Made by a program: the position numbers and the translations under genes. From NCBI RefSeq assembly GCF_019263585.2, contig NZ_JADQDF010000001.1, positions 310,001 to 374,000 of the forward strand: a DNA stretch of 64,000 bases, in the 5' to 3' direction. The notes under the pieces were generated by a model. That model had not been told where the DNA came from. It ran no database searches and worked only from the letters and a program-made list of their open reading frames with translations. Positions 29,156 through 53,554 of the stretch are shown in pieces; the stretch's first letter is position 1, and the number at the start of each line of letters is the position of its first letter. This stretch comes from Pseudonocardia oceani. GTDB lineage: Bacteria > Actinomycetota > Actinomycetes > Mycobacteriales > Pseudonocardiaceae.

Positions 29156-29162
29156 CGCCGAC

Positions 29163-32990: not shown

Positions 32991-33060
32991 GGAGCTCCTC
33001 CTGCTGCTCAGCGGCGTTCTCGCACTCAGCGGCAAGTGAACTGCATCACCCGACGGCGGA

Positions 33061-39145: not shown

Positions 39146-40425
39146 CGGCCGACCCCGTCCCGGCCGGACACCTGTTCGTGCCAGCGGCGCCAGAAGGCCC
39201 GCATCTGCTCCTCGTCGTCGGCGTGCGGGTCGCGCGCCATCCCGCGGGAGATGTCGTTCCACTCGATGCCGCCGCTGCGGAAGCCTTGCTGGCAGGACTC
39301 GAGAGCCTCGATGTCGTCCGGCGTCGCGAAGCCGCCCGGGCCGAGGAAGGTGAGGAAGCTGTCCAGGCGCCGTTGCCGCAGCTGCGGCATCTCGTCGGCC
39401 GGCGCGAGCTCCCACGCCGTGACCTCCATGCGGTCGGCCGACACCGGCATGAACGTCCGCACCGTGACGGCCATGATGTCGTTGATGATCAGGTTGGGGT
39501 AGACGAACAGGTTGCGGTTGGTCTCGGCCATCCGCGCGGCCCGCTCCTCGCCGAAGCGCTCCACGAGGTCGGCCCGCAGCCGCGCGATCTCCTCACGGCC
39601 GTCCTCGCCGAACATCGGCTCCCACTTGGCCACCGGCCGTCCCCATGGGGCGTGGTAGTCGATCACCGCGTGCCCGTTGCCGAGCGACCGGCCGACGCCG
39701 TCCACGCCGGTCGAGAGATCGGTGCCGAGGGCGACGAGGTACTTGAAGTAGGTGTCGTGCGTCGGGACCGCGTGGTAGCCGTCGATGCTGTTCTCCACCA
39801 GCAGCTTCCAGTTGGCGTCGATCGCGTACTGGTTGCTGCCGGAGATGATCTCGGCGCTCCCGAGGCCGTCGGCCGCGAGGTCGAGGTACTCCTTCGCCCC
39901 GGCCAGGTACTCGTCGAGCTCGACGATGTCCGGGTCGTAGCTGGCGAAGACGAAACCGCGGTAGCTCGCCATCCGGGCGACCGGGCGCAGCCCGAGCTCG
40001 GAGAAGTCGAGCCCCTCGCCGTAGGCGTCGCGGCCCGGCACGCCGACCAGCTTGCCCTCGGTGTCGAACGACCAGGCGTGGTAGAAGCACTGGAAGACCT
40101 TGGCGTTGCCGGAGTCCTTGCGGCACACGACGGCGCCGCGATGGCTGCAGGTGTTGTGGAACACCCGGATCTCGCGGGACTTGGCCGCCCGCACCATGAA
40201 CAGGGGCCGGCCGCCGACAGGACGCCGGACGTAGTCGCCGGGCTCGCGCACCTCCGACTCGTGCCCGACGTAGAGCCAGCTGTGGGCGAAGACCCGCTCG
40301 AGCTCGAGGGCGTGGATCTCGGGCGAGGTCATGCTGGAGCGGTGCACCCGGAACCGGTGCCCCTCCTCCTCGACGAGCCCGCCGCCGGTGCCGACGGCGG
40401 GTGGGGCGGAATCGGTGACGGTCAC
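39142..40425 (-). CDS. Rieske ring-hydroxylating dioxygenase, alpha subunit (aromatic-acid/cumate-like)
   Basis: The 427-residue alpha subunit has Rieske ligands Cys93/His95 (CSHRGA) and Cys113/His116, and iron ligands Asp215, His218 and His223 (IDGYHAVPTH). The second Rieske motif reads CFYHAWSF, with Ala where the conserved CxYHGW glycine stands. It starts at GTG overlapping the hydrolase stop. Operon partners (SDR, LigB-type extradiol, hydrolase, amidohydrolase) fit dihydroxylation of an aromatic acid such as a p-cumate analogue, followed by meta cleavage. The substrate is inference. Confidence 0.9.
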   Translation of the reverse strand: MTVTDSAPPAVGTGGGLVEEEGHRFRVHRSSMTSPEIHALELERVFAHSWLYVGHESEVREPGDYVRRPVGGRPLFMVRAAKSREIRVFHNTCSHRGAVVCRKDSGNAKVFQCFYHAWSFDTEGKLVGVPGRDAYGEGLDFSELGLRPVARMASYRGFVFASYDPDIVELDEYLAGAKEYLDLAADGLGSAEIISGSNQYAIDANWKLLVENSIDGYHAVPTHDTYFKYLVALGTDLSTGVDGVGRSLGNGHAVIDYHAPWGRPVAKWEPMFGEDGREEIARLRADLVERFGEERAARMAETNRNLFVYPNLIINDIMAVTVRTFMPVSADRMEVTAWELAPADEMPQLRQRRLDSFLTFLGPGGFATPDDIEALESCQQGFRSGGIEWNDISRGMARDPHADDEEQMRAFWRRWHEQVSGRDGVGR

Positions 40426-41279
40426 GACTCTCCTTCGGTTGCGGGGTCGGCGAGGAAGCCGGCGACGAGGCGGGAGAACTCGTCCGCCCGCTCGATCTGG
40501 GTCCAGTGCCCGCAGCGGGCGAACACGTGCAGGTCGGCGTCGGGGATGAGGCCGGCCATCGTCCAGCTGACGTCCACGGGGATGACCTTGTCGTGCATGC
40601 CGTGGACGAGCAGCGTCGGCGCGGTGACGGTGCGCACCGCGTCCGCCTCCAGGGCCAGGTCGTTGCCCGAGTGGCGGGGGTCGAAGAACATCGTCCGGTA
40701 GATCTCGTGCGCGTCGCCCTCGATGCTCGCCCGGTACCGGGCCTGCACCAGGTCGTCACCGATGATCGAGGGGTCGTAGGCGAAGTGCGTGGTGAGCAGC
40801 TCGCGCATGTTCTCCGGAGACGGCTCGTAGCTGCGCACCGCGGCGAGGCCCTCGGTGGGCCGCATCCCGACCCCGGGTGCGCCCATCAACACCATCCGGT
40901 CGATCCGCTGCGGCTGCGTGATCGCGATGTGCAGCGTGATCAGCCCCCCCATCGAGTTGCCGACGAACGACGCGCGGGGCACGTCGAGGGCGTCCAGGAA
41001 ACCGATCATGTGGTCGAGCCAGGTGGCGACCCCGTAACGGATGTCGGCGGGCCCGCGGCTGGCGCCGTAGCCCACCATCTCCGGTGCCAGCACCCGGTAC
41101 TGCCGGGCCAACGCCGGCATGGTGAGCCGCCAGTTCGCCCACGCGCTCACTCCCGGACCGGACCCGTGCAGCAGCACGACGGTGCGTGCCCCGGCGCCGG
41201 CCTCCAGGTACCGGGTGCGGATCCCGCCGACGTCGACGAACTTCTCGGCCAGCTCGGTGGCCGCGGCGGTGGTGGTCAT
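40422..41279 (-). CDS. Meta-cleavage product hydrolase (alpha/beta hydrolase, CmtE/XylF-like)
   Basis: The 285-residue hydrolase has LLHGSGPGVSAWANW near 36-50, the nucleophile motif GNSMGG, the acid in HGMHDKVIP and the histidine in CGHWTQIE. This is the C-C hydrolase pattern for 2-hydroxy-6-oxo-dienoates. It is bracketed by four-base overlaps with the LigB-type dioxygenase and the alpha subunit, so it very likely acts on that dioxygenase's product, releasing a carboxylic acid and a hydroxypentadienoate. Confidence 0.92.
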   Translation of the reverse strand: MTTTAAATELAEKFVDVGGIRTRYLEAGAGARTVVLLHGSGPGVSAWANWRLTMPALARQYRVLAPEMVGYGASRGPADIRYGVATWLDHMIGFLDALDVPRASFVGNSMGGLITLHIAITQPQRIDRMVLMGAPGVGMRPTEGLAAVRSYEPSPENMRELLTTHFAYDPSIIGDDLVQARYRASIEGDAHEIYRTMFFDPRHSGNDLALEADAVRTVTAPTLLVHGMHDKVIPVDVSWTMAGLIPDADLHVFARCGHWTQIERADEFSRLVAGFLADPATEGES

Positions 41280-42367
41280 GCCTTGTTCCCCTCGGAGACG
41301 GCGTTCCCCTCGAAGACCGCGAAGCACTTGTTGGAGTTGAGGACCTCGGTCTCGACGAACGTCGACCAGGTCGGCCTGTGGCCCAGCTCCGCCATCGCCC
41401 CGGCCAGGCAGAACCACAGCAGCATCTCCTGCTGGCCCGACCGCACGATGTCGTCCGCGCTGGTCTTGAGCCAGGCCTCGTAGTCGCCCGCCGCCAGGGA
41501 CTCGTACAGGGCGCGGTCCGAGACGGTGTCCGGACGCAGGTGCCAGTTGTCGTCGACGAGGAAGGCGTGCGACCAGCTCGACGACGCGACCAGCGCCACC
41601 CGGTGCGGCCCGTCGCGCAAGGCCGAGGCCAGTGCCGCGCCGAGCGCGTAGCAGCGCGCCGGGGTGGGGCCGGGCGGGTCCAGCCGCTCGGTCGCGATGT
41701 CGGCGAACTTCGCGATGCCGCCCTTGCGGGCGATCACGTGCCGGCCGTAGCAGTTCACCGCCATCGGCAGCACGGGGTAGGGGAACTCGGTGCCGGCGTG
41801 GTCGTAGTCCAGGTAGAGCTGGGTGTTGGCCATCGCGTGCGGGAACGGCACGCCGTCGGGCTTGCGGTAGGAGTAGGCGATGTCGAACCCGGCGTCGAGC
41901 AGGTGCGCCGCGACCTCCCGGCCGATGTCGGGGGCACCGCGCATCAGCATCGGCATGTCGGCCGGCCGACCCCACGGGTTGGGTACCCCGCGCGACCCGG
42001 CGGGCTCCAGCGGCCGGACCTCCATGTCCTCGTAGGCCATCAGGCAGAACGACGGCACGACCTCCTCGCGGAAGGTCTCGTACTGGTCGTCCCCCCAGAC
42101 CAGGACGACGTCGGGCGCGAACGCGTCGAGGGCCTCGCGGCACCTCGCCATCCCCGCGACCAGCTCGGCGCGGTGCCGGGCCGCGGCCGCGGTGCCCCCG
42201 TCGTCACCCCAGTCGGCGCGCATCCGCTCCGGCCAGTTCGCCGGGTCCTTCTGCTCGGCCGGGATGTCGGGGTCCGAGAGCGTGAGCCGCAGGATGTCGG
42301 CCATGTGCTCGTCTGTGACCGCGAGCGGCGGGTAGTGGGTCAGGCCGAGGCCGAGGATCTCGCCCAC
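41276..42367 (-). CDS. Class III (LigB-type) extradiol ring-cleavage dioxygenase
   Basis: The 363-residue protein has LigB-superfamily blocks: GLGLTHYPPL at the start (first His ligand), LVWGDDQYETFREEVVPSFC, and SWSHAFLVDDNWHL. It is a single-chain member without a separate LigA-like subunit; the C-terminal 60 residues (WLKTSADDIVRSGQQEM onward) look like a LigA-type helical cap. It opens a catechol carrying a carboxylate or bulky group next to the hydroxyls. It overlaps the amidohydrolase by 28 bases and the hydrolase by four. Confidence 0.88.
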   Translation of the reverse strand: MGEILGLGLTHYPPLAVTDEHMADILRLTLSDPDIPAEQKDPANWPERMRADWGDDGGTAAAARHRAELVAGMARCREALDAFAPDVVLVWGDDQYETFREEVVPSFCLMAYEDMEVRPLEPAGSRGVPNPWGRPADMPMLMRGAPDIGREVAAHLLDAGFDIAYSYRKPDGVPFPHAMANTQLYLDYDHAGTEFPYPVLPMAVNCYGRHVIARKGGIAKFADIATERLDPPGPTPARCYALGAALASALRDGPHRVALVASSSWSHAFLVDDNWHLRPDTVSDRALYESLAAGDYEAWLKTSADDIVRSGQQEMLLWFCLAGAMAELGHRPTWSTFVETEVLNSNKCFAVFEGNAVSEGNKA

Positions 42368-43392
42368 GAGGGGCCTCCCTTGTCGTGGACCGCGCTCTCC
42401 GGGTGGAGGGCGGCGATCATGTCCAGTGCGTTGTCACGGCCGATCAATCTGCGTAGGCCGTCGTCCAGGCCGTCGAGGACGGCCCCGGCCGGGGCCTCCC
42501 GAGCGGCGAAGGGGTAGTCGGTGCCCAGCACGACGTGCCCGGGCCCGAACCGGGTGACCGCCAGCCGCAGGCTGTCGGCGTCGTAGGCCAGCGAGTCGCA
42601 CCACATGTCCCGGGCGCGCACCGTCGGTGGGCGCTCGCCCGGGCGGCCCGCGAGCAGCTCCCCGCGGTCGAGGCGGGGCAGCACCGCCGGCAGCGCCCCA
42701 CCGGCGTGGGCCAGGCACAGCCGCATCCCGGGCCGCCGCTCGCGGCCGGTGAGCAGGGCCGCCGCCGCGACGGCGGTCTCGCCCGGCATCCCGATGCCGA
42801 ACCCGATGCCCAGGGCCGCCAGCCGCGGGTCGAGCGTCTGGTCGACCGGGTGCACCAGGACGAAGGCGCCCAGCTCGGCAGCGGAGTCGAAGAACTCGTC
42901 GAAGCGCGGGTCGGCCAGCTCGGCGTCACCGACCCGGGTGCCGATCTCCACCCCGGGGAACCCCAGCTCGCCGACGCAGCGCAGCAACTCGGCCGTCGCC
43001 CGGGCCGGGTCCTGCAGCGGGACGGCGCCCAGGCCGAACAGCCGCCCGCCGCCCCGCCCGACCAGCTCCGCGAGGAACTCGTTCTGGGCGGCGGCCAGCA
43101 CGGCGGCCCCGTCGGCAGGCTCCCCGTGACACAGCGTCACGGGGATCGGCGAGACGAGCTGCGCCGCCACGCCCTCGGCGTCCATGTCGGCCAGGCGGCG
43201 CTCCGCCGACCAGCACCGGTCGTCGACCTCCCGGTACGGGCGCCCGTCGAGCAGGATGCGGGCGGTGGTTTCGTCGATCCGCTCCGTCGAGGGCCACCGG
43301 CCGGGGTGGTCGGACAGGTCGGGCAGGTCGGGCGCGATCGCGTGCGTGTGGACGTCGATCGTGCCGGCGGGCAGCGCCGGGACGGACCTCAT
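42340..43392 (-). CDS. Amidohydrolase-family (ACMSD-like) decarboxylase or hydrolase
   Basis: The 350-residue metal-dependent protein has the DVHTHAI start motif (His15, His17), VLVHPVDQTLDPR, LAHAGGALP and the C-terminal metal Asp in GTDYPFA. It belongs to the amidohydrolase 2 group with aminocarboxymuconate semialdehyde and gamma-resorcylate decarboxylases. The ATG at 43392 follows GGAGG and is preferred to the GTG at 43404. In a cumate-like route a decarboxylase is needed between ring cleavage and hydrolysis (the CmtD step), and this protein could fill it; that is inference. Confidence 0.85.
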   Translation of the reverse strand: MRSVPALPAGTIDVHTHAIAPDLPDLSDHPGRWPSTERIDETTARILLDGRPYREVDDRCWSAERRLADMDAEGVAAQLVSPIPVTLCHGEPADGAAVLAAAQNEFLAELVGRGGGRLFGLGAVPLQDPARATAELLRCVGELGFPGVEIGTRVGDAELADPRFDEFFDSAAELGAFVLVHPVDQTLDPRLAALGIGFGIGMPGETAVAAAALLTGRERRPGMRLCLAHAGGALPAVLPRLDRGELLAGRPGERPPTVRARDMWCDSLAYDADSLRLAVTRFGPGHVVLGTDYPFAAREAPAGAVLDGLDDGLRRLIGRDNALDMIAALHPESAVHDKGGPSWARSSASA

Positions 43393-43417
43393 CGACACCT
43401 CCACAGCTGGGTCGTCG

Positions 43418-43663
43418 TCACGGCGGCGGCGCCTCGGGAGCCGACTCCCCCGGGAACAGCTCGTCGGTGTGGCCCAGGTAGCCCAGGGCGAGGAACAGGT
43501 ACGCGTCGGCCATCTCCAGGGCCCTTCCGACGGCCGGGCTGACCGCGGCGGCCTGCTCGGACAGCAGGCCCGCCCGCAGGGCCGCGAGCCGCTCGCGCTG
43601 CAGGTCGGGCGGGCCCCCGAGCACCGACGGGGCCGCCTGCACCGGGATCTGTACCGTCGTCAC
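43418..43663 (-). CDS. Small helical protein coupled to the PaaK-like ligase
   Basis: An 81-residue protein starts at GTG overlapping the PaaK-like stop (GTGA). It is mostly helical (LQRERLAALRAGLL, VGRALEMADAYLFLALGYLG) with an acidic, Pro-rich tail and no Cys. It has high third-position GC in frame. I do not recognise it. Coupling to the ligase and the amidohydrolase (25-base gap) suggests a subunit or chaperone of one of them. Confidence 0.65.
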   Translation of the reverse strand: MTTVQIPVQAAPSVLGGPPDLQRERLAALRAGLLSEQAAAVSPAVGRALEMADAYLFLALGYLGHTDELFPGESAPEAPPP

Positions 43664-45033
43664 AGGTTGTCTCCCAACGTCACGGTGGGCCGCTCGTCCA
43701 CCGACCGGCTGTCGAAGATCCGCTTGGTCTTCAGCTCGTACCGCGGCAGCGCGCCCGCCGCGAGGATCTCGGTCTCCAACCGGACGCCGAGGTTGTCCCG
43801 GAGGTGGCCGCCGAGGGATCGGCCGAGCTCCGCGGCGTCGGCCCCCGGTGTCCCTGCCTCCACCTTGACCAGCATCCGGTCCATCCCGTCGACCCGGCTG
43901 ATGTGCAGCTCGTAGTGGTTGGACAGGCCGGTCACCTCGCCGATCAGGTTCTCCACCGCCGTGGGATAGACGTTGACACCGCGGATGGTGACCATGAAGT
44001 CGGCGCGGCCGAGCACGGTGCCGGGCATGTGCTTCCACGTCCATCCGCAGCCGTGGTCGGGCGCGTCGTCGATGCGGACGAGGTCGTGGGTGCGGTACTT
44101 GATGAACGGTTGCGCGAAATGGGTGTAGCTGGTCAGCACGTGCTCGCCGACCGCGTCCGATGAGGTGACGGGCTCGCCGGACGCCGGGTCGACGGCGTAG
44201 GAGTGGCAGACGTCCTCGATCACGTGCACCCCGCCGGCCCACTCGTGGCAGGACTGGCTGATGAACAGCGCCTCGCCCACGCCGTAGGCGTCGTAGACCT
44301 GCTCGGCCCCCCACGCCTGCTTCAGCTGGTCGCGCGTGGCGGGGATGGAGAAGCCGGCCTCGCCGCCGCCGGCGAGCATGCGCACCCCGGCGTCGCGGAC
44401 GTCGAGGCCCTCGCGCCTGGCCACCTCGGCGAGGTGCAGCAGGTAGGTGGGCGTGCCGCAGACGATGGTGGGGCGCCGCTCCAGGATCTGCCGGACGCGC
44501 TCCACACCGCTGGCCCCGCCGCCGGAGACGATCGTCAGGCCGAGGTTGCGGGCGCCCCAGTAGAAGCTCCAGAGCCCGATCCACATGCCGAAGTCGAAAC
44601 AGAAGTACATCGAGTCCGACGGCCGGATGCCGTGGTCCCACAGGCCGTAGCAGTACTGCGAGCCCGCCTTGTGCAGCTCGTAGTGGGTGAAGGCCTCGTT
44701 GAGGAAACGGCCGGTGGTGCCGGTGGTGTGGAAGTACTGCTGCCAGGTCTCCGGCCCGCGGGCGATGCCACCGAACCCGTCGGCGCTGGCCTCCTGGTCG
44801 GCCACGTAGTGGGGCTTGTCGGTGAAGGGCAGCTTGTGGTGGTAGTCGTCCCACGTGCGGATGTCGGCGGGCTTGACGCCGGCCGCGTCGTAGATGCGCC
44901 GGTGCAGCGGCGAGTTCTCGTAGGCCCAGCCGACGAGGTGGCGGATGCGCGTCAGGTGCAGCGCGTCGAGCGTCTCGCGCGACGCGGTCTGGGTCGGCGC
45001 GTTCCAGAGCCGGGACTGCTCGATCGTGGTCAC
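43660..45033 (-). CDS. Phenylacetate-CoA ligase-like AMP-forming ligase (PaaK family)
   Basis: The 457-residue protein has the PaaK-type start (LVGWAYENSPLHRRIYDAAGV), the phosphate loop HTTGTTGR at about 102-109 (no Lys after TTG), YGVGEALF and the C-terminal DFMVTIRGVNVYPTAVE. The GTG at 45033 follows GGAGAT and is chosen over an upstream ATG that would overlap the crotonase. It would make an aryl-CoA in the cytoplasm. The operon thus contains CoA (ligase, crotonase, MaoC pair) and non-CoA (dioxygenase, extradiol) steps. Confidence 0.87.
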   Translation of the reverse strand: MTTIEQSRLWNAPTQTASRETLDALHLTRIRHLVGWAYENSPLHRRIYDAAGVKPADIRTWDDYHHKLPFTDKPHYVADQEASADGFGGIARGPETWQQYFHTTGTTGRFLNEAFTHYELHKAGSQYCYGLWDHGIRPSDSMYFCFDFGMWIGLWSFYWGARNLGLTIVSGGGASGVERVRQILERRPTIVCGTPTYLLHLAEVARREGLDVRDAGVRMLAGGGEAGFSIPATRDQLKQAWGAEQVYDAYGVGEALFISQSCHEWAGGVHVIEDVCHSYAVDPASGEPVTSSDAVGEHVLTSYTHFAQPFIKYRTHDLVRIDDAPDHGCGWTWKHMPGTVLGRADFMVTIRGVNVYPTAVENLIGEVTGLSNHYELHISRVDGMDRMLVKVEAGTPGADAAELGRSLGGHLRDNLGVRLETEILAAGALPRYELKTKRIFDSRSVDERPTVTLGDNL

Positions 45034-45041
45034 GACATCTC

Positions 45042-45833
45042 CTACCGGCCCAGCCACTGCGGCGGGCGCTTCTCGAGGAACGCCCGCGCGCCCTCCCGGT
45101 GGTCCTCGGTGGTCTTGAGCACGCTCTGCCCCAGCCGCTCCAGCCGGCGCCCCGTCTCGGCGTCGACGTCGGTGCAGGTGTTGAGCACGAGCTTGGCCAT
45201 CCCCAGCGCCAACGGCGCCATCGTGGCGAGCCGGCCGGCCATCGCGACGGCGGCCTCCAGCGCACCGCCGTCGGCGACCACCTCGGTGGCCAGTCCGAGC
45301 TCCAGGGCTCGCGGCGCGCGCAGCGTGCCGCCGAGCATCACGAGCTCCTTCGCCCGCCCCAGCCCGACGTGGCGGACCAGCCTCGAGCAGCCGCCCGAGC
45401 CGGGGATCAGCCCGACCTTGGCCTCGGGCATGACGAACCGGGCGCTCTCCCCGGCCACCCGGAAGTCGCAGGACAGGGCGAGCTCGAAGCCGCCGCCAGC
45501 GGCGACCCCCTCCACCGCCGCGATGACCGGCGCCTCCATGGCCTCGACGGTGTCGAACACATCGTGGATGCCCCGGGCCAGCGCGCGGAACCCGCGGGTG
45601 CCCATCGCGGTGAGGTCGCCCATCTCGCCGACGTCCTCGCCCGCGGAGAACCCGCGACCGGCCCCGGTCAGCACCAGCACCCGGACCTGCGGGTCACCGG
45701 CGGCGTCCTCGACGGCGTCGCGCATCTCCGAGCGCATCCGGGAGTTCCACGCGTTGAGCCGGTCCGGGCGGTTGAGCGTCAGCACGCGGACACCGCCGGC
45801 CCGCTCCTCGGTCATGAGGTGCTCGTAGCCCAT
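45042..45833 (-). CDS. Enoyl-CoA hydratase/isomerase family protein
   Basis: The 263-residue crotonase has TGAGRGFSAGEDVGEMG at about 56-72, AAGGGFELALSCDFR and MPEAKVGLIPGSGG, with the Glu and PGSGG typical of hydratases. FSAGED replaces the usual FCAGGD. The ATG overlaps the MaoC gene stop. It probably acts on the CoA ester formed by the next gene's ligase. Confidence 0.88.
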   Translation of the reverse strand: MGYEHLMTEERAGGVRVLTLNRPDRLNAWNSRMRSEMRDAVEDAAGDPQVRVLVLTGAGRGFSAGEDVGEMGDLTAMGTRGFRALARGIHDVFDTVEAMEAPVIAAVEGVAAGGGFELALSCDFRVAGESARFVMPEAKVGLIPGSGGCSRLVRHVGLGRAKELVMLGGTLRAPRALELGLATEVVADGGALEAAVAMAGRLATMAPLALGMAKLVLNTCTDVDAETGRRLERLGQSVLKTTEDHREGARAFLEKRPPQWLGR

Positions 45834-46189
45834 CAGGCACCGTCCGCGGCGGCGGCCGGGGTGAGTGCCACCGTGGCCACGACCGTCCCGTCGGCCTTGC
45901 GGACCTCGACCCCCTTGTCGGTGGGGGCGACCGTCAGCTCGTCACCCGGGAAGACCGGGGCCGACAGCCGCGCCGTGGCCGAGCGCAGCGCGTCCGGGCC
46001 GATCTGCGCGACGACGGCGTCCAGCGCCAGTGCGACGGTCAACGGGCCGTGCGCGATCACCGACGGCAGGCCGGCCGCCTTGGCGAACTCCTCGTCGACG
46101 TGCACCGGGTTGTAGTCGTCGACGGCTCCGGCGTAACGGGCGATCTGCACCCGGCTCACCGGGCCGAGGGTCGCTTCCGCGATGTTCAC
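45833..46189 (-). CDS. MaoC-like dehydratase, catalytic half
   Basis: The 118-residue hot-dog protein has the R-hydratase motif DDYNPVHVDEEFAKAAGL (Asp25, His30) and IAHGPLTVALALDAV. The GTG at 46189 overlaps the stop of the partner. With the upstream FAS1-type half it forms a second heteromeric MaoC pair in the window, here in the opposite operon from the first pair. Confidence 0.87.
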   Translation of the reverse strand: MNIAEATLGPVSRVQIARYAGAVDDYNPVHVDEEFAKAAGLPSVIAHGPLTVALALDAVVAQIGPDALRSATARLSAPVFPGDELTVAPTDKGVEVRKADGTVVATVALTPAAAADGA

Positions 46190-46617
46190 GACGTGGCCGC
46201 CCTCTCGACGAACGTGATCGACTGGCGCTGCACGACCGCACCGTCGCTGTCGGTGTACTCGGCGACGACCACCCCGAACTGGTTGGCGCCCTTGGCGAAC
46301 ACGTCGTCGACGATGACCCGGACGTGCACGGTCTCGCCCGGTACGAACGGGCGCTCCCACTCGTAGCCGAGCCCGCCCAGGAGCGCTCGCGACAGGTCCA
46401 GCCCGAGGCCGTCGACGACGGCGGACTCGCCGCCGACCGTCGCGGCGAAGGACGGCACGAGGGTGGCGGTGCGTGGCCCGCTGTCCGTTCCGAGTGCGCC
46501 CGCCAGGCGTGCCAGCAGCGCGGGCGTGACCACGAGATCCGCCTCTGCCAGGGTGCGCCCCTTTGCGCCCTCGTCCACGTCGACCTCCGTATCTGTGGGG
46601 GGCTCGAGTTCGCCCAA
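46186..46617 (-). CDS. MaoC/FAS1-type dehydratase-like protein, N-terminal half
   Basis: The 143-residue protein shows the N-terminal dehydratase-like fold (LGYEWERPFVPGETVHVRV, ANQFGVVVAEYTD) without the catalytic Asp/His motif. It is the first gene of the long leftward operon, with a candidate promoter 14-43 bases upstream, and is coupled to the catalytic half by GTGA. The ATG at 46617 is used; in-frame starts further inside are possible. Confidence 0.82.
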   Translation of the reverse strand: MGELEPPTDTEVDVDEGAKGRTLAEADLVVTPALLARLAGALGTDSGPRTATLVPSFAATVGGESAVVDGLGLDLSRALLGGLGYEWERPFVPGETVHVRVIVDDVFAKGANQFGVVVAEYTDSDGAVVQRQSITFVERAATS

Positions 46618-46630
46618 CCCATTGGTCGGG

Positions 46631-46660
46631 ACAATGGAGGACCGGGAGCGGCCGCGTCAA
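46631..46660 (-). promoter_or_regulatory. Leftward promoter of the MaoC-to-SDR operon
   Basis: On the reverse strand TTGACG (46660-46655) and CATTGT (46636-46631) are 18 bases apart, with the first start codon 14 bases further on. The -35 is good and the -10 weak. It lies back to back with the rightward promoter at 46695. Confidence 0.4.
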
Positions 46661-46694
46661 GGGCGCCCGCCGAATAATTCATTCGACCCGTCGG

Positions 46695-46724
46695 TTGACG
46701 AAACTCCGGCCGCCCGATTATGGT
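46695..46724 (+). promoter_or_regulatory. Rightward promoter of the diiron/XylMA operon
   Basis: TTGACG at 46695-46700 and TATGGT at 46719-46724 with an 18-base spacer form a sigma-70-like promoter 30 bases before the GTG start of the diiron gene. A GAAGGGAG ribosome site lies at 46742-46749. Confidence 0.5.
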
Positions 46725-46754: not shown

Positions 46755-47477
46755 GTGACGATCACCGAGGTGCCGCGCCGGGTCTACCGCGAGGGCGATC
46801 CGGAGATGCCCGAGGAGTTCCACGAGCTCCTCGTCCGCATGCTCAGCCACCACCTGGAGAACTCGACCAATCCGCACTACACCGACCTGCTCGGGAAGTT
46901 GTGGAACAGGTGCATGACGCTGTGCCCGACCGAGCGCCTGAAGACGACCTTCGCCAAACTCATGGCCCAGGAGGTGGAGCACGGGGTCATCACCGCCCGG
47001 ATCCTGGAGGGGCTCGGGGTCGGCCCGATCGACGCCCCGATCAAGCAGTACTTGTTCCACCTGCCCATCGACTCGTTCTGCGACCTCGCCTACTTCAACG
47101 GCCTCGGCGACCGGGTGGGCTGCTACATCGGCGAGACGTGGGAGGGCGTGCCCTACGAGCCGCTGCTCTCCGTCGCCGAGCGCCTGCACAAGGACGAGGT
47201 CTTCCACGCCACGTTCGGCATGAGCAACCTCAAGCGCATCTGCTCGACGCCCGAGGGCCTCGACGAGGCGAACCAGAAGATCAAGATCTGGTGGCCGGCC
47301 GCGCTGGACATGTTCGGCCGGTCGGACTCGAACTTCTCCGACGCCTACGTCCGCTGGGGTCTGCGCACCAAGAACAACGAGGACCTGCGCCAGCAGTACG
47401 TCGCCGACACCCGGCCGATGGTGGAGGCCCTGGGCATCTCGGTGCCCGCCGACACCGCCAACCGGCGGTTCCTCTGA
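46755..47477 (+). CDS. Stand-alone PaaA/PaaC-like diiron (ferritin-like) protein
   Basis: The 240-residue helical protein resembles the phenylacetyl-CoA epoxidase PaaA/PaaC family. It carries two ExxH pairs suitable for a diiron site, Glu73-x2-His76 (AQEVEHG) and Glu148-x2-His151 (KDEVFHA); Asp110 and Glu35 are possible further ligands. The GTG at 46755 has a GGGAG site; upstream in-frame codons overlap the divergent gene and are rejected. No PaaB, PaaC partner or PaaE reductase accompanies it. Instead two small proteins follow with overlaps. It may be an O2-activating enzyme or an electron-transfer or assembly partner of the XylM-like hydroxylase; function is unassigned. Confidence 0.75.
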   Translation: MTITEVPRRVYREGDPEMPEEFHELLVRMLSHHLENSTNPHYTDLLGKLWNRCMTLCPTERLKTTFAKLMAQEVEHGVITARILEGLGVGPIDAPIKQYLFHLPIDSFCDLAYFNGLGDRVGCYIGETWEGVPYEPLLSVAERLHKDEVFHATFGMSNLKRICSTPEGLDEANQKIKIWWPAALDMFGRSDSNFSDAYVRWGLRTKNNEDLRQQYVADTRPMVEALGISVPADTANRRFL

Positions 47478-47767
47478 TGACCGCCACCGACCCGTTGCTC
47501 GCCCGCGGGTCCGGCGGGTGGCGGGTGCAGGTGGTCCGGCCGGACCCGAAGGTGGCGCTGTTCGAGGTGGCGCTGTCGGACTACCGGGAGTTCTTCTTCG
47601 TGGCCGTCGGCGAGCGGTCGGTCTCGGTCACCATGTACGACACCAGCGACCAGACCTACCCGGAGCCGCAGACGTTCACCTTCGCCAAGCCCTACGGCTG
47701 GGACGCCGACCTCGGTGACGAGGAGGCGCTGCTGCAGGTGTGGCAGGCCGTCGGCGTGCAGCGATGA
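47477..47767 (+). CDS. Unrecognised 96-residue protein of the diiron cassette
   Basis: The ATG lies in the stop of the diiron gene (TGATG). The protein is beta-rich with WRVQVVRPDPKVALFEVAL and DYREFFFVAVGERSVSVTMYD, then an aromatic, acidic tail. It has no Cys, signal peptide or membrane segment. It is the size of PaaB but shows no PaaB motif I recognise. It is coupled on both sides and is partly represented in the decayed copy near 63.85 kb, so the three genes travel together. Confidence 0.7.
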   Translation: MTATDPLLARGSGGWRVQVVRPDPKVALFEVALSDYREFFFVAVGERSVSVTMYDTSDQTYPEPQTFTFAKPYGWDADLGDEEALLQVWQAVGVQR

Positions 47768-48045
47768 GCACCTTCACCGTCAAGGGCTCCCGCAACGGCA
47801 GCCTGGTGCACGTCACCTGGACCGACGGGCGGATCAGCGGCGACTTCCCCACCGTGGACCTGCTGCTGACCGAGGCCGAACTGGTCCCGATCCTGCACGC
47901 GGACGCCTACGCCGCCCGGGCCCTGCCCCACCTCGACGGGATGACCGCGGCCCCCCTGCAGGACGCGGCGGCGGCCTACCGGCTGATCGTGCACGTGATG
48001 GACAGCGTGCGCGAGACGACCGGCGACGTACCCGCCGTGACCTGA
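47764..48045 (+). CDS. Unrecognised 93-residue protein of the diiron cassette
   Basis: The ATG overlaps the preceding stop by four bases. The protein begins with a beta segment (FTVKGSRNGSLVHVTWTDG), followed by helices (LLLTEAELVPILHADAYAAR, AAYRLIVHVMDSVRETTG). It has no Cys or membrane segment. I recognise no family. A fragment of its first 25 codons is preserved in the relic at 63.88-63.93 kb. The 147-base gap after it contains a short tandem repeat. Confidence 0.7.
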   Translation: MSTFTVKGSRNGSLVHVTWTDGRISGDFPTVDLLLTEAELVPILHADAYAARALPHLDGMTAAPLQDAAAAYRLIVHVMDSVRETTGDVPAVT

Positions 48046-48192: not shown

Positions 48193-49332
48193 ATGGGTGC
48201 ACTTCGCTACTACATCGTCACGGCGGTCGTCGCGGCCGCCGTCGTCGGGCTCTGGCTCGGCGGATCGTGGGCGTGGCTCGGGATCGCCACCTTCCCGGTC
48301 CTGATGGCCCTGGACATCCTGCTGCCCGCCGACCACGAGCCCCGGAAGATCTCGATGCCGGTGCTGGCCGACATCCCCCTCTACCTCCACCTCCCGCTGC
48401 TGGTCGGGCTGTGGGCGCTGTTCATCGGCCGCCTCACCGAGTGGACCTCGGGCGCCGCCGGCGCGATGAGCGGCTGGCAGATCGTCGGGATGGTCCTGTC
48501 GGTCGGGTGGATCGGGGCGGTGCCCAACCTGCCCATCTCCCACGAGCTCATGCACCGTCGGCACTGGTTCCCGGTCGCGGTGTCGAAGATCTACAACACC
48601 GTGTACCTCGACCCGAACCGCGACGTGGGCCACAAGCTCACCCACCACCTCGACCTGTGCACCCCCGTCGACAGTGACACCCCCCGGCGCGGTCAGACGA
48701 TCTACGCGTTCGTCTGGCAGGCCTCCTACGGGGCGTGGAAGGACGGCGTGGTCACCAGCGTCCAGTCCCTGCGCAAGCGCGACATGACGATCTTCCACCC
48801 GCGCAACGCCGTGTACGTCGAGATCCTGCTGCTGGCCGCCCTGTGCGCAACGGTGCTCTACTTCGCCGGCTGGGTCGGGCTGCTGGTCGCCGTCGCGACG
48901 ATGATCTTCTCCAAGCTGCTGGTGGAGGGCTTCAACTACCTGCAGCACTACGGCATGGTCCGGGTGCCCGGCTCGCCCATCAAGCTGCACCACGCCTGGA
49001 ACCACCTCGGGCCGATCATCCGGCCGCTCGGCGTCGAGATCACCAACCACATCGAGCACCACTTCGACAGCAAGCACCGCTTCTACGAGCTCGAGCCGCG
49101 CACCGACGGGGCGCAGATGCCCAGCGCCTTCCTCTGCTTCGTCTGCGCCCTGGTGCCGCCGCTGTGGACGAGCTACATCGCCAAGCCGCGGCTGCAGGAC
49201 TGGGACACGAGGTTCGCCTCCCCCGACGAGCAGCGCATGGCGATGGCCGAGAACCGGCGGATCGGCTGGCCCGAGTGGGTCGGCGCCGCCACCGGCAAGA
49301 AGGTCGACCCGGAGCCCTCGGGCATGGCGTAG
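48193..49332 (+). CDS. Membrane alkyl-group hydroxylase, XylM/CymAa/AlkB family
   Basis: The 379-residue integral-membrane protein has several hydrophobic spans (for example 7-45, 62-80, 95-115, 208-245) and the family's histidine boxes: His117-x3-His121 (HELMHRR), His147-x3-HisHis (HKLTHH), NYLQHYG at 248-254 and HIEHH at 286-290. This fold holds a nonheme diiron centre that hydroxylates a methyl or alkyl group. The nearby XylA-like reductase and the NHIEHHFDSKHRFYEL segment point to the xylene/cymene branch rather than alkane hydroxylases. GAGGAA upstream is the ribosome site. Confidence 0.88.
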   Translation: MGALRYYIVTAVVAAAVVGLWLGGSWAWLGIATFPVLMALDILLPADHEPRKISMPVLADIPLYLHLPLLVGLWALFIGRLTEWTSGAAGAMSGWQIVGMVLSVGWIGAVPNLPISHELMHRRHWFPVAVSKIYNTVYLDPNRDVGHKLTHHLDLCTPVDSDTPRRGQTIYAFVWQASYGAWKDGVVTSVQSLRKRDMTIFHPRNAVYVEILLLAALCATVLYFAGWVGLLVAVATMIFSKLLVEGFNYLQHYGMVRVPGSPIKLHHAWNHLGPIIRPLGVEITNHIEHHFDSKHRFYELEPRTDGAQMPSAFLCFVCALVPPLWTSYIAKPRLQDWDTRFASPDEQRMAMAENRRIGWPEWVGAATGKKVDPEPSGMA

Positions 49333-49398
49333 GCCCCGGCCGTGGGCGTCGGCGCCCACCGTGTCGCAGCTACTCACCCACCGAGAGACAGGACAGTG

Positions 49399-50454
49399 AT
49401 GGGGTTCTTCACACGCGACCGGACGCCGCCGTCGGTCACCATCCGGCCGTCGGGCAGGTCCTTCCCCGCCACCGGCAAGGACTCGATCCTGAACGAGGCT
49501 CTCGCAGCCGGGATCCCGTTCCCGCACAGCTGCACCGTGGGCACCTGCGGCACCTGCAAGTCGCGGCTGATCAGCGGCAAGGTCCGGGAGATCACCGACG
49601 CCGCGATCGCGCTGTCGTCCGAGGAGCTCAAGGACCGCTTCATCCTCCCCTGCCAGTCACTGGCCCGCGGGGCGGTCGAGCTCGACGTCGCCGATCTCGC
49701 CGACATGCCCGACCACCCGCTGGTGCGCACCCATGGGGAGATGGTCGGCAGGCGCGAGCTGACCCACGACATCCTGGAGGTCGTCGTCCGGGTCGACGAG
49801 CCCTTCGAGTACTCGGCGGGCCAGTACGCCGAGGTGACCGTCGACGGCGTGTCCGGTCCGCGCAGCTACTCCTTCGCCACGGGGGGGGCCGACCGTCCGA
49901 AGGACGAGTTCACCTTCTTCGTCCGCCGGACCCCGGGGGGCGAGTTCACCGAGTGGCTCTTCGCCGACGACCGGACCGGCACCCGGCTCGGCGTCGTCGG
50001 GCCGTTCGGCAACCTGTGGCTGCGGCCGTCGACGGCGCCCGTGCTGTGCGTGGCCGGGGGCAGCGGTCTGGCCCCGATCAAGTCGATCCTGGAAGCCGCC
50101 CGCGACGACGACGTCCGGCGCGAGTTCGTGTTCGTGTTCGGGGCCCGCACCACCCGCGACCTCTACTGCCTGGAGGAGTCCGAGGCGCTCGCCGACGCCT
50201 GGGGGGCGTCCTACACCTTCCTGCCCGCGCTGTCGGAGGAGGCGCCCGACTCGGGCTGGTCGGGCGCCCGCGGCATGGTCACCGACGTCCTCGCCGGGCT
50301 CCCCGCCGAGCTACTCACCTCGTGCGACGCCTACGTGTGCGGCCCGCCGGTGATGGTCGACGCGGTGGAGGAGCAGTTGCGGGCCCTGCGGCCCGAGGGC
50401 GGCTTCTTCCACGCCGACAGGTTCCTCGACAAGAAGACCCAGCGACAGGGGTGA
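49399..50454 (+). CDS. Ferredoxin-NAD(P)H reductase, XylA/CymAb-like electron transfer component
   Basis: The 351-residue protein has an N-terminal plant-type [2Fe-2S] domain (Cys45, Cys50, Cys53, Cys85), an FAD-binding domain with RSYSFATGG, and an NAD-binding domain (VAGGSGLAPIKSIL, CGPPVMVDAV). This ferredoxin-FAD-NAD order is that of XylA, CymAb and BenC. The ATG at 49399 is preferred over one at 49342, whose extra residues are not family-like. It reduces the XylM-like hydroxylase; it might also serve the diiron protein or the dioxygenases. Confidence 0.92.
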   Translation: MGFFTRDRTPPSVTIRPSGRSFPATGKDSILNEALAAGIPFPHSCTVGTCGTCKSRLISGKVREITDAAIALSSEELKDRFILPCQSLARGAVELDVADLADMPDHPLVRTHGEMVGRRELTHDILEVVVRVDEPFEYSAGQYAEVTVDGVSGPRSYSFATGGADRPKDEFTFFVRRTPGGEFTEWLFADDRTGTRLGVVGPFGNLWLRPSTAPVLCVAGGSGLAPIKSILEAARDDDVRREFVFVFGARTTRDLYCLEESEALADAWGASYTFLPALSEEAPDSGWSGARGMVTDVLAGLPAELLTSCDAYVCGPPVMVDAVEEQLRALRPEGGFFHADRFLDKKTQRQG

Positions 50455-50458
50455 GCCG

Positions 50459-51499
50459 TCAGGGCGCCAGCCGCCGCGCCACGCCCGCCAGCTTCTGCAC
50501 CCCGTCGTGTTCCAGGGCCGGCAGTGCGGCCGCGATGCGGCGCACGCCCGCGAGGCGATCGACGGCCGGGGCCTCACCCACCGCCGCCGAGGCGGTCTCC
50601 GACCACGTGTCGGCGAGCCGCCGGTACACCGCGGCCGCCGCGAGCACCACCGGATCGTCGATCCAGCCGCCGAGATCGGTCAGGAACTCCGCCTGCAGCC
50701 GCCGGAACAGCCCGCCGCCGGTTCCCGCCTTCTCCACGAACACCTGCAGGCTGAACAGCGCACGATCCAGCGCGTCCCCCGGGAACTGCTCGGCCCAGAG
50801 GTCGAGGTCGGCCACGAACGCAGCGACCCCGGCGGTCCCGGCGACCGCCGTCGCACCCATCGCCGCGGCCGGGTCCGACATGCCGTGCACCGCCTCGGCA
50901 CACGCCCTCGCCGCCGCCGCCCGCAGGTCCGGGAGCGCGTCGGGGAAGCCGAGCCGGAAGCAGGTGTGCCGGGTGGGCACCGGGAAGCCGACGGCCGAGC
51001 GGGCCCGCGCCAGGTCGTCGCGGCCGATCGTCTGCGGCTCGGCCCGGTCGTTGTCCACCACGACAACCGTGCCCGCGTCGTCGTCGTAGCCGATCACGAC
51101 GATGTCGTGGCGACTCATCCGCATCTTCACCCGCAGGTAGGGCAGCTCGGCCATCTCCGCCCAGCACAGGACCGGGCGGCCCGCATCGAGCTCGTCGCGC
51201 ACCCACTCCCAGCCCAGCACCGGATCGTCGGTCGAGCGCAGCTCCTGGGCGATGCCGAGGTTGGCGCTGAACTGCTCGGTCAGCGCGGCGCCGCGCCCGA
51301 CGAGGTAGATCGGGGTTCCGAGGCCGGGGCCACGGAGGTAGCTGAAGCTCAGGCTGCCGCCGAGCCCGAACACCGCGCCCTCGCCCATCGGCGCGTCGCC
51401 GTAGCTCAGGCCGGCCCAGTCGAGCAGGTCACGCAGCGAGCCGGACCCGCAGTGCCCGCCGATCCGGTGCGGGTACCCGGCGACCATCGAGCCGCCCAT
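50459..51499 (-). CDS. BtrH-like/DUF4872 protein
   Basis: The 346-residue protein resembles the butirosin BtrH N-terminal domain plus a DUF4872-like C-terminus. It has a Cys near residue 17 in GGHCGSGSLRDLL, the glycine-rich FGLGGSLSFSYLRG, and a His-containing RHDIVVIGYDDDAG, as in Cys-dependent acyltransferase/peptidase-like folds. The ATG overlaps the thioesterase stop. BtrH transfers an acyl group from a carrier protein, but no carrier or antibiotic gene is near, so the function is open. It converges on the reductase gene across four bases. Confidence 0.75.
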   Translation of the reverse strand: MGGSMVAGYPHRIGGHCGSGSLRDLLDWAGLSYGDAPMGEGAVFGLGGSLSFSYLRGPGLGTPIYLVGRGAALTEQFSANLGIAQELRSTDDPVLGWEWVRDELDAGRPVLCWAEMAELPYLRVKMRMSRHDIVVIGYDDDAGTVVVVDNDRAEPQTIGRDDLARARSAVGFPVPTRHTCFRLGFPDALPDLRAAAARACAEAVHGMSDPAAAMGATAVAGTAGVAAFVADLDLWAEQFPGDALDRALFSLQVFVEKAGTGGGLFRRLQAEFLTDLGGWIDDPVVLAAAAVYRRLADTWSETASAAVGEAPAVDRLAGVRRIAAALPALEHDGVQKLAGVARRLAP

Positions 51500-52065
51500 C
51501 AGGCACCCCGGGCGATCGTGCCGGGCACCGACGGGCCGGGCGGGCTCGTGTCCGACACCGTCGTGTCGGGTCGTGCGACGCGGAACCTGCTGACCGCGTC
51601 GGCCCCGTCGGCCGAGCCGAACCGTTCGAAGTGCGCGAGGTCCACCGTGACGAACACGGCGTGCGCGGAGAAACGCACCGCACCGTCGGCTGCGCGCCCC
51701 TCGGCCGCCATCGTCAACCGGCGGCCGTCCTGACTCACGAGCCGACCCGTCAGCCGGTGCGGCTCCCCCACCGGCACCGGTGCCAGGTACTCCACCTGGA
51801 GGCTGCGGGTCACGGCCGGCTGCCGCAGCACGTAGAGCAGGAACGCCACCAGGTCGTCGCAGGCCGACGCCAGCACCCCGCCGTGCACGACACCGTGGGC
51901 GCCGGCGTGCTTCGGCGCGAAGGACACGTCGGCCAGCACCTCGTCGCCGACGCGGTAGACCTGCAGCGCGACCCCGGCCGGGTTGTCCGGGCCGCAGCCG
52001 AAGCAGCGGTCCCCGTGCGGGTCGAGCAGGACCGCGTCCGCTGGCCGCGGAGGAAGCTCCGTCAT
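51499..52065 (-). CDS. Hot-dog thioesterase (PaaI/4HBT superfamily)
   Basis: The 188-residue protein has the hot-dog helix motif VVHGGVLASACDDLVAF and an N-terminal CFGCGPDNPAGVAL segment typical of actinobacterial PaaI-type thioesterases. It should hydrolyse an acyl- or aryl-CoA. It is divergent from the TetR gene at 52133, with a TGACAG-N11-CTGTCA dyad between them, and is coupled to the BtrH-like gene. Confidence 0.88.
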   Translation of the reverse strand: MTELPPRPADAVLLDPHGDRCFGCGPDNPAGVALQVYRVGDEVLADVSFAPKHAGAHGVVHGGVLASACDDLVAFLLYVLRQPAVTRSLQVEYLAPVPVGEPHRLTGRLVSQDGRRLTMAAEGRAADGAVRFSAHAVFVTVDLAHFERFGSADGADAVSRFRVARPDTTVSDTSPPGPSVPGTIARGA

Positions 52066-52099
52066 CGGTGGACCCTTCGTTGCGGTGTGTCCGTCTTCT

Positions 52100-52122
52100 T
52101 GACAGCGGCGGGCCGTCTGTCA
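52100..52122. promoter_or_regulatory. TetR operator candidate TGACAG-N11-CTGTCA
   Basis: A perfect 6-base dyad with an 11-base spacer lies 11-33 bases before the TetR start, in the 67-base divergent gap. TTGACA of its left arm could also be a -35 element for the regulator. Autoregulation plus control of the thioesterase is inferred. Confidence 0.55.
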
Positions 52123-52132
52123 GGCTGCCATC

Positions 52133-52735
52133 ATGGCACAGCGACAGCACCGGTTCCCGGGTGTCACGCGCCACCTGCTGCGCGAGGCCGCGATCGACGC
52201 CACCGCCGAGGTCGCCGACCGATCCGGCTGGGAGTCGCTGCGGATGGGCGACGTGGCGGCCGCGGTCGGCATCAGCCGGCAGACCCTCTACGCGGAGTTC
52301 GGCTCGAAACCCGCACTGATCCGCGCGGTCGTGCTCCGCCGGACCGACCGGCTCCTCGGTGCGCTGTCCGCCGTCCTCGCGGACGCGGGCGGCGACGAGC
52401 AGGAGGCGGTCCGCACCTGCTGCCGGTTCGTGCTGAACGCGGCCCGGGAGGACCCGATGGTCACCTGTCTGCTCACCGGGGCGGAGAGCGGCCTGCTCGA
52501 CCTGGTCACCACCGACTCGGCCCCGATCATCGACCGGGCCACCGCGGCCCTCACCGGCCACGTCCTGCGACGCCGTCCCTCCGCGGACCCGCGCCGGGTG
52601 GCGGTGGCCGCCGACGCACTGGCCCGGCTGCTGGTCAGCCACGTGGTGCTGCCCGACCGCGACGTGGACACCGTGGCCGATGAGATCGCCGAACTCGTCG
52701 GGCCCTACCTCCGAGAGGTCCTCTCGACCGGATGA
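52133..52735 (+). CDS. TetR/AcrR family regulator
   Basis: The 200-residue protein has the TetR helix-turn-helix at about 34-56 (LRMGDVAAAVGISRQTLYAEFGSK) and an all-helical ligand domain (TCCRFVLNAAREDPMVTCLL). It is divergent from the thioesterase/BtrH-like pair and convergent with the next TetR gene. It most likely represses the divergent pair. Confidence 0.9.
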   Translation: MAQRQHRFPGVTRHLLREAAIDATAEVADRSGWESLRMGDVAAAVGISRQTLYAEFGSKPALIRAVVLRRTDRLLGALSAVLADAGGDEQEAVRTCCRFVLNAAREDPMVTCLLTGAESGLLDLVTTDSAPIIDRATAALTGHVLRRRPSADPRRVAVAADALARLLVSHVVLPDRDVDTVADEIAELVGPYLREVLSTG

Positions 52736-52769
52736 ACCGGATGCGACGGTCCCTCGGGTCCGGGCGGCG

Positions 52770-53474
52770 TCACCCCGACGTCGCCGGGCCCGACCGCGCC
52801 GGGTCCGGTGGGACCCGGCCATCCGGGACCGGCACGCCCGGCCCGAGCACCAGACCGATCATCGTCCGGGCGACGTCCTCCGGGGTGTCGCGCACCGGGT
52901 CCATCCACTTGTAGACCCAGCTGGTCATACCCAGCAGCGCGTGGGCGGCGTGCCTGGCGTCCAGCCGGGTCGCGCCGTCCGCCGCGGTCGCGGCCTCGAC
53001 GACCTCCGCGACACGCCGCACGTAGGCCCGCTCCTTGCGCCGGATGTCGGCGTCGAAGCTGTCGTCCAGCCGCGGGCGCTGGTCGAAGAACACGGCAAAC
53101 AGGCTCGGCTCCTCGGCGACCATCCGCACCTGGTGGGCGATGAGCGTGGCGAGGCGCTCCCGAGGGTCGGGGATGCCGGACATCGCGTCCAGCCGGTGCA
53201 GCGACAGCGTGATCGCCCGGTCGAAGATCAGGTAGAGCAGCTGGGCCTTGCTGCGGACGTAGTGGTACAGGCTGGCCTTGCTCAACCCGAGCACGGCCGC
53301 CACGTCGTCGAGCGAGCCGGCGTCGAAACCGCGTTCGTGGAAGACCACGGTGGCGGTGTCGATGATCTCCTCGAGGCGCTTGCGGTACTCCGGCGACGGT
53401 TCGGTCAGCCGGGGACGGCCCGGGCGGCGCCGCGGCACGGCAGGCTCGGTGTCGCGATCGGCCGCTGCCGCCAT
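52770..53474 (-). CDS. TetR/AcrR family regulator (KstR2/FadR-like length)
   Basis: The 234-residue protein has the helix-turn-helix SLDDVAAVLGLSKASLYHYV near 55-75 after an Arg/Pro-rich leader, and the TetR_C-type segment LRRLDAM... with FFDQRPRLDDSFDADIRRKE. This arrangement is common in TetR regulators of lipid and steroid catabolism. The ATG at 53474 is used; a GTG directly before it is possible. A 243-base divergent gap with two palindromes separates it from the DUF6230 gene. Confidence 0.88.
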   Translation of the reverse strand: MAAAADRDTEPAVPRRRPGRPRLTEPSPEYRKRLEEIIDTATVVFHERGFDAGSLDDVAAVLGLSKASLYHYVRSKAQLLYLIFDRAITLSLHRLDAMSGIPDPRERLATLIAHQVRMVAEEPSLFAVFFDQRPRLDDSFDADIRRKERAYVRRVAEVVEAATAADGATRLDARHAAHALLGMTSWVYKWMDPVRDTPEDVARTMIGLVLGPGVPVPDGRVPPDPARSGPATSG

Positions 53475-53554
53475 CACTCGCCCCTTCGTACCCGAGCGCC
53501 TCTCGACCAGCAGGCGCCACTCGATCTCCGCCGGGTAGATGTTCTCACCACCGG

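Follow-up and report, generated by a model that had tools for sequence, protein, structure and literature searches.

A compact PaaA-like diiron protein with two small partner proteins in Pseudonocardia oceani, a candidate acyl-CoA ring oxygenase of a Paa-like hybrid pathway

Among the closest known systems to the gene cluster presented here is the 1,2-phenylacetyl-coenzyme A (CoA) epoxidase PaaABCE. The Paa hybrid route comprises a CoA ligase, a PaaA-type oxygenase, a crotonase and a hotdog hydratase; PaaE is a relative of phthalate dioxygenase reductase (PDR), and BoxB is a homologue of PaaA (accessible part of PMC4498308). According to the accessible part of a survey that covered 6,536 genomes and appeared in 2026, PaaA, PaaB and PaaC architectures are rare outside the context of a phenylacetate-CoA ligase, and PaaA plus PaaC are proposed as markers of the phenylacetate pathway (PMC13186573). 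We analysed a stretch of 64,000 nucleotides (the window, G000:C3:310001–374000) from the 6.8 Mb genome of Pseudonocardia oceani. It encodes a PaaA-like diiron protein (D) and two small conserved proteins (S1 and S2). Judged from sequence comparisons, D-S1-S2 would act in a hybrid pathway similar to Paa, as a compact oxygenase of acyl-CoA rings, and we give this reading a probability of about 60%.

The D locus shares with PaaABCE a PF05138 subunit, with five metal-site residues in common. A PaaK-like ligase, a crotonase and a hotdog hydratase lie near D, and a PDR-like reductase is present in some loci. In contrast to PaaABCE, there are no adjoining PaaB and PaaC genes but two unrelated small proteins instead, together with a TetR-type gene and a common operator-like motif. 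The benzoyl-CoA 2,3-epoxidase BoxAB is likewise an oxygenase of an aryl-CoA. BoxB has a length of ~470 amino acids, whereas D is about half that size. No chain named BoxB was among the PDB sequence matches up to E = 1, a missing match being weak evidence. Another short PaaA-like protein (235 amino acids) is 4MUD, annotated as 'Ring oxydation complex/ phenylacetic acid degradation related protein'; it matched the D profile with E 1e-7, which is weaker than the match to PaaA.

D is encoded on the forward strand at positions 46755–47474 (47477 including the stop codon), begins with GTG and comprises 240 amino acids. S1 (96 amino acids, 47477–47764, 47767 including the stop) and S2 (93 amino acids, 47764–48042, 48045 including the stop) follow on the same strand. 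The S1 start lies within the stop codon of D (TGATG, an overlap of one base), and the S2 start lies in a four-base ATGA overlap with S1. A preliminary description of this stretch had named a ferritin-like protein with two ExxH pairs and two unrecognised partners joined by stop-start overlaps. The coordinates, motifs, overlaps and family searches all agree with it. The nearest named relatives of the D gene are from Pseudonocardia.

D matched the Pfam family PaaA_PaaC (PF05138) with 60.5 bits (cut-off 28.5). The score with the NCBI PaaA model TIGR02156 was 71.1 bits and thus far under the cut-off of 280. The best match among solved structures was PaaA (E 6e-14 to 1e-12 in PDB sequence searches). 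The two ExxH motifs are E73/H76 and E148/H151. Six residues were invariant in 19 of 19 D sequences: E35, E73, H76, D119, E148 and H151. Five of these (E73, H76, D119, E148 and H151) were also common to all ten PaaA rows of the alignment and would form a metal site of the PaaA type, while E35 aligns with His and not Glu in PaaA. In the PaaC rows, all of the five except H151 were mostly lost. The PaaA and PaaC rows were taken from fetched genomes.

A 42-row tree (19 D, 10 PaaA, 11 PaaC and 2 others; quick method, no bootstrap) grouped D into one clade with a Shimodaira-Hasegawa-like approximate likelihood ratio test (SH-aLRT) value of 100, placed on the PaaA side. The forks responsible for this placement were weak (79–89), and the D branch was long. 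For D, S1 and S2, the ratio of nonsynonymous to synonymous substitution rates (dN/dS) was <0.6 in each of the 12 pairs calculated. Together with the joint occurrence of the three genes in the family (see below), this speaks against a chance arrangement. The genome of Mycobacterium sp. SM1 encodes a further, divergent pair of PF05138 proteins (L058, L072) that falls into none of the PaaA, PaaC and D clades.

D is rare. It was found in 6 of the 296 genomes of a class sample (E ≤ 1e-30) and in 1 of the 396 genomes of a phylum sample (E ≤ 1e-25), the P. oceani genome being counted in both cases. In a family sample of 390 genomes, again including P. oceani, D, S1 and S2 were each present in eight genomes, and the eight were identical. 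For S1 and S2, scoring in this search was confined to the 13 top-ranking first-look candidates of each genome. Among 20 D-bearing genomes or records, S1 was found in 15 and S2 in 18, meaning that the two small reading frames are conserved elsewhere. The records without S1 hold the loci L018, L020, L021, L022 and L023, and those without S2 hold L022 and L023. The titles of the S1-less records name Acidimicrobiales twice, Acidiferrimicrobium, an Actinobacteria metagenome-assembled genome and Acidimicrobiia. D bearers include Pseudonocardia, Frankia, Rhodococcus, Mycobacterium and Acidimicrobiia. Among plasmids, two Rhodococcus records carry D at 77% identity, while the other 189 matching records were <60% identical. 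One of the two is pRHL1 of the laboratory strain R. jostii RHA1, which carries D, S1 and S2, so that knock-outs are within reach. Two genomes hold two D loci each (L036 and L037 in G585, L025 and L026 in G012).

Neither small protein could be assigned to a family. Profiles of S1 (16 rows) and S2 (17 rows) gave no Pfam family, with stray matches only (E ≥ 0.03), and no NCBIfam model matched the window S1 or S2 at E values up to 1. A match of the S1 profile to an (R)-amine transaminase (E 0.017) was set aside as it covered a short stretch of a 330-residue enzyme. In a profile comparison with PaaB, the probabilities were 0.1% for S1 and 0.5% for S2, from shallow profiles. S2 carries the signature VRGxRNGS..W..G...GDPPTVDL around V6–L33. 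The predicted structure of S1 (mean predicted local distance difference test score, pLDDT, 78) has a five-stranded sheet and a C-terminal helix, with residues 1–13 being unreliable. S2 was modelled with a pLDDT of 93 and the order beta-beta-beta-alpha-alpha-alpha-beta. Foldseek found no clear structural relative of the S1 model (best E 0.39), and a second structural comparison gave a best Z of 6.3 (3.9 Å over 83 residues, actin-capping protein), which is in the ordinary range. For the S2 model, the best Foldseek E was 1.0, and the second comparison reached Z 2.5 (2.8 Å over 54 residues). As far as these models go, such missing relatives are absences and not proof of new folds.

The genes around D were compared across 24 distinct D loci. 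Since L009, L013, L014, L017, L022 and L023 do not extend far enough on at least one side, the counts given here are minimum values. S1 was found near D in 18 loci and S2 in 19. Besides these, the most constant neighbours belong to a divergent operon, which in the window lies on the reverse strand and begins 137 bp from D, provided that the start codons are correct. Its first gene encodes an FAS1_DH-type hotdog protein (46186–46617, PF13452; 19 of 24 loci). It is followed by a MaoC-type hotdog hydratase (45836–46192, start inferred, PF01575; 19 of 24 at ≥40% identity), an enoyl-CoA hydratase/isomerase or crotonase (45042–45833, PF00378; 18 of 24 at ≥60%) and a PaaK-like acyl- or aryl-CoA ligase (43660–45057, PF14535; 14 of 24 at ≥60%). 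The ligase reached 204.9 bits with TIGR02155, for which the cut-off is 646.3. Directly behind the ligase gene is the gene for a third small conserved protein, S3 (81 amino acids, 43421–43663, 43418 with the stop; no Pfam match), which was present in 14 of 24 loci. These divergent genes (43421–46617) had been omitted from the preliminary description and are far commoner with D than XylM is. It is the hotdog, MaoC, crotonase and ligase genes, and not XylM/XylA, that form the constant neighbourhood of D.

Tandem FAS1_DH-type and MaoC-type hotdog genes are also known from the heterodimeric MaoC-type hydratase HadAB, and ChsH1-ChsH2 is another hydratase of this kind. Unlike HadAB, the hotdog pair described here is tied to a diiron gene, and it scored far under the cut-offs of the HadA and HadB models.

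We propose the following route for this gene set. The PaaK-like ligase would activate the substrate to an aryl- or cyclic acyl-CoA. Being a diiron protein of the PaaA type, D would then oxygenate the ring, most likely to an epoxide, using O2 and electrons that a 2Fe-2S/FNR reductase supplies. Isomerisation, hydration or opening of the oxygenated product would fall to the crotonase and the MaoC/hotdog pair, and beta-oxidation enzymes would complete the degradation. S1 and S2 may replace PaaB/PaaC in oxygenase assembly, in reductase docking or, in the case of S2, in substrate transfer from ligase to oxygenase. The cluster thus points to an additional way in which some soil actinobacteria may degrade ring compounds.

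Several observations weigh against an acyl-CoA ring oxygenase composed of D, S1 and S2. First, we infer the ring in the substrate solely from the protein family and the neighbouring genes. Second, D differs from PaaA at two sites. The lysine bridge of PaaA is formed by Lys68 (accessible part of PMC4498308). In the alignment, the bridge column holds Lys in 10 of 10 PaaA rows and Leu69 in 19 of 19 D sequences (the adjacent D residue 68 is Lys in 16 and Arg in 3), and D has no counterpart of the PaaA C-terminal tail beyond about residue 245. Third, the presumed partners are not constant. Of the 20 D-bearing genomes or records, 5 gave no match to S1 and 2 gave none to S2, so neither is universal, and the PaaK-like ligase (≥60% identity) was missing at 10 of the 24 loci, several of them truncated. 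Of these ligase-poor loci, L021 has a relative with 36% identity and L018 a ligase fused to S2. The crotonase is scored higher by plain hydratase models than by PaaG, and no cut-off was reached among the listed models.

The candidate electron donor is a further weak point. A PDR/VanB-type reductase (≥40% identity) was found at only 6 of the 24 loci, in one case cut at the contig end. On the two Rhodococcus plasmids and in Mycobacterium SM1, it is encoded 1.3–2.3 kb behind D and on the same strand as D, which favours the ring oxygenase reading, PaaE being a PDR relative as well. In the window, this reductase is not part of the cluster, and the reductase present there is of the XylA type with the 2Fe-2S domain first, whereas PaaE-type reductases begin with the FNR domain. 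Nine D-bearing genomes were searched as a whole. Seven contained a PDR/VanB-type reductase somewhere, and G692 and G694 had no match, meaning that their electron donor may be a different one.

The position of S2 bears on the role of the small proteins. In L018 (4402–6225), a single frame of 608 amino acids encodes an S2 domain together with a complete acyl-CoA ligase, and in seven loci (L015, L016, L018, L020, L021, L025 and L027) S2 lies 1.7–6.1 kb from D. Both findings fit a helper of the ligase as well as an oxygenase subunit. Hence, S1 and S2 could be pathway helpers, for example with S2 serving the CoA ligase and S1 acting in binding or maturation, and the D-bearing records without S1 would fit such a role. 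The overlap of the three genes in the window and their occurrence in the same eight family genomes argue against it. We regard helpers as somewhat unlikely and S1 and S2 as probable partners of the oxygenase.

The nature of the substrate could also differ from the one proposed. D might hydroxylate a non-aromatic acyl-CoA (alicyclic, terpenoid or branched) in a pathway similar to beta-oxidation, with no aromatic epoxide being formed. At several loci, D is accompanied by an acyl-CoA dehydrogenase, a thiolase, a short-chain dehydrogenase/reductase (SDR), an F420-type luciferase-like monooxygenase (LLM) protein and two hydratase types. This would suit such a pathway, as would the loss of the PaaA tail and bridge lysine. 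On the other hand, the ligase is of the PaaK type, and an aromatic ring-cleavage module lies beside D in the window, L036 and L010 (partly decayed in L010). BoxB acts on an aryl-CoA, and the same holds for PaaA as the relative of known function (accessible part of PMC4498308). Taken together, a non-aromatic substrate appears unlikely to us.

A more far-reaching version of the ring oxygenase reading can be offered tentatively. D and two new small-protein families may constitute a third kind of diiron oxygenase for CoA thioesters beside PaaABCE and BoxAB. S2 would couple the ligase to the oxygenase, and the substrate, perhaps also a reactive epoxide, would be handed over and not released.

A common promoter motif was found upstream of D. 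In the window, an operator-like palindrome running into a -35-like TTGAC lies at 46677–46703 on the forward strand (score 43.6). A weaker copy on the reverse strand faces the hotdog operon (46609–46635); it scored 14.8 in the window, under our threshold of 20, and 21.4 in L009. The consensus AATTC-nn-CGACYnGTCGG-TTGAC is present upstream of D in most loci, with variants. All 24 loci had a site scoring ≥20 upstream of D; the matrix had been trained on 14 of these sites, and a second matrix on 13 of them. Of the ten sites held out from the first matrix, only L020 (25.2), L022 (22.2) and L023 (25.1) were not near-copies of training sites, and these were the weakest. The exact pattern occurs once in the P. 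oceani genome, at D. With up to two mismatches, there were 16 matches compared with 22 in a reversed control, so the exact D site alone stands out. Ten mononucleotide-shuffled windows, a weak control, gave 0 matches >13, and 27 other loci (121,443 bp) gave 1 match ≥20.

At loci where the cluster is split, the motif precedes other genes of the cluster besides D. It was found upstream of the amidohydrolase in L014, L015 and L020, the SDR in L015, S2 in L020 and the hotdog operon in L043. It also precedes binding-protein genes in L020 (Peripla_BP_6) and L014 (a similar lipoprotein-type gene, judged by eye), a thiolase gene leading towards the S2-ligase in L018, and ligase-like and permease-like genes in L038 (by eye). 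In L041, a match of 20.9 precedes a transposase-associated gene (its twin in L042 is unassigned), so scores near 20 are unsafe. The motif ties separated pieces of the cluster into one regulon, with XylM/XylA included in one genome.

This regulon is probably controlled by a TetR-type repressor via the conserved operator. The candidate gene lies at 52770–53477 on the reverse strand and was recognised by eye from its translation, as well as through a counterpart in L041 (59% identical) that is annotated accordingly. A relative (≥45% identity) was found near D in 12 of 24 loci. No TetR gene was found in L036, and the reading in L011 contains a stop.

We checked whether canonical Paa proteins accompany D. 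In the P. oceani genome, PaaA, PaaC and the only PaaB match are located near G000:C3:940 kb, away from D; PaaD was not part of the search. The statement of the preliminary description that no PaaB is present at the D locus is thereby borne out. It is very improbable that D is an ordinary PaaA paralogue which borrows PaaB, PaaC and PaaE from a canonical cluster elsewhere. In P. oceani such a cluster would be available, but a search of 15 D-bearing genomes gave no PaaB match in 8 of them (completeness figures are lacking for most), and D has no PaaA tail. Moreover, in G038 (99% complete) and G692 (no completeness figure), D was the sole PF05138 match, and there was no PaaB match either. D therefore cannot generally depend on PaaB/PaaC and does not always occur with the ordinary Paa partners. 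Its own clade, the PaaA-type metal residues and these genome searches all favour the separate O2-activating enzyme that the preliminary description had put forward as one of two possibilities.

The D family is a counter-example to the survey as far as its accessible part goes (PMC13186573), being PaaA-like and often placed by a PaaK-like ligase, in G038 and G692 without another PF05138 or a PaaB match. The D family is not mentioned in that part of the survey, and the accessible part of PMC11881993 holds nothing on D. Among the papers listed in literature searches, no title or abstract opening pointed to the D cluster; subscription journals were largely outside their coverage, so an earlier description is possible. 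If the ring oxygenase reading is true, the contributions of PaaB and PaaC could be studied with D-S1-S2 as a minimal system. Pseudonocardia, Frankia, Rhodococcus, Mycobacterium and Acidimicrobiia would then possess a new route for ring compounds, and two small-protein families would have a testable role.

Downstream of S2, as already noted in the preliminary description, a membrane hydroxylase and its reductase are encoded on the forward strand. These are an XylM-like protein of the FA_desaturase type (48193–49329, 49332 with the stop, PF00487), which is 49.6% identical to a Pseudomonas plasmid XylM, and an XylA-like 2Fe-2S/FNR reductase (49342–50451, 50454 with the stop; Pfam and NCBIfam matches). 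The other possibility of that description, namely that D-S1-S2 assists the XylM-like hydroxylase in its maturation, electron supply or product handling, is highly improbable: adjacency in the window, L036, L025 and the decayed L010 and the common motif in G012 speak for it, but no XylM was found at 19 of 24 D loci (some truncated), and XylM/XylA are broken in L010 beside an open and constrained D cluster.

Relative to D, the xylene monooxygenase XylM/XylA is an optional neighbour. Both genes (≥45% identity) were found at 5 of 24 loci each. XylM adjoins D in four of them and lies at a distance of 19.6 kb in L041. In G585, XylM/XylA were found at only one of the two D loci. L010 (Pseudonocardia 73-21) has internal deletions in XylM and XylA, while D, S1, S2, S3, hotdog, MaoC, crotonase and ligase genes are open there, with dN/dS of 0.09–0.47 against the window. 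In L036, XylM (dN/dS 0.19) and XylA (0.29) are also constrained, and the pair is kept. The D-type motif lies upstream of the XylM/XylA operon of G012 (L025), whose first two genes encode, by eye, an aldehyde dehydrogenase and an alcohol dehydrogenase. XylM/XylA therefore looks like an optional feeder, which would, where present, begin the oxidation of a methyl-substituted hydrocarbon to a carboxylic acid.

Remnants of a second D-S1-S2 copy were found at 63744–63932 on the forward strand. They consist of three fragments in the original order: a D piece, a piece that spans the end of D and the beginning of S1, and an S2 piece (62, 65 and 51 aligned columns, 86–92% identical). The greater part of D and almost the whole of S1 have been lost. 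The preliminary description had taken this decayed copy as support for a functional unit. The preserved order holds, but a heavily deleted remnant is weak support, and the comparison of 24 loci replaces it. A 2,346-bp stretch behind XylA (50458–52803) is duplicated at G000:C3:374388–376731 with 97.5% identity. This duplicate sits just past the window end, beside the remnants of the second D copy.

The ring-cleavage module of the window lies behind S3 on the same reverse strand (37857–43404). It comprises genes for an amidohydrolase, a LigB-type extradiol dioxygenase, a BphD/HsaD-like hydrolase, Rieske alpha and beta subunits and an SDR. The extradiol dioxygenase and the amidohydrolase (both ≥50% identity) were each found near D in 3 of 24 loci. 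The arrangement is presumably similar to that of the p-cumate (Cmt) meta pathway. A gene set resembling the module is also present on a plasmid of R. pseudokoreensis. Two further Rieske-oxygenase-like frames, judged by eye, were seen in the window on the reverse strand at 27881–29218 and 31617–33035.

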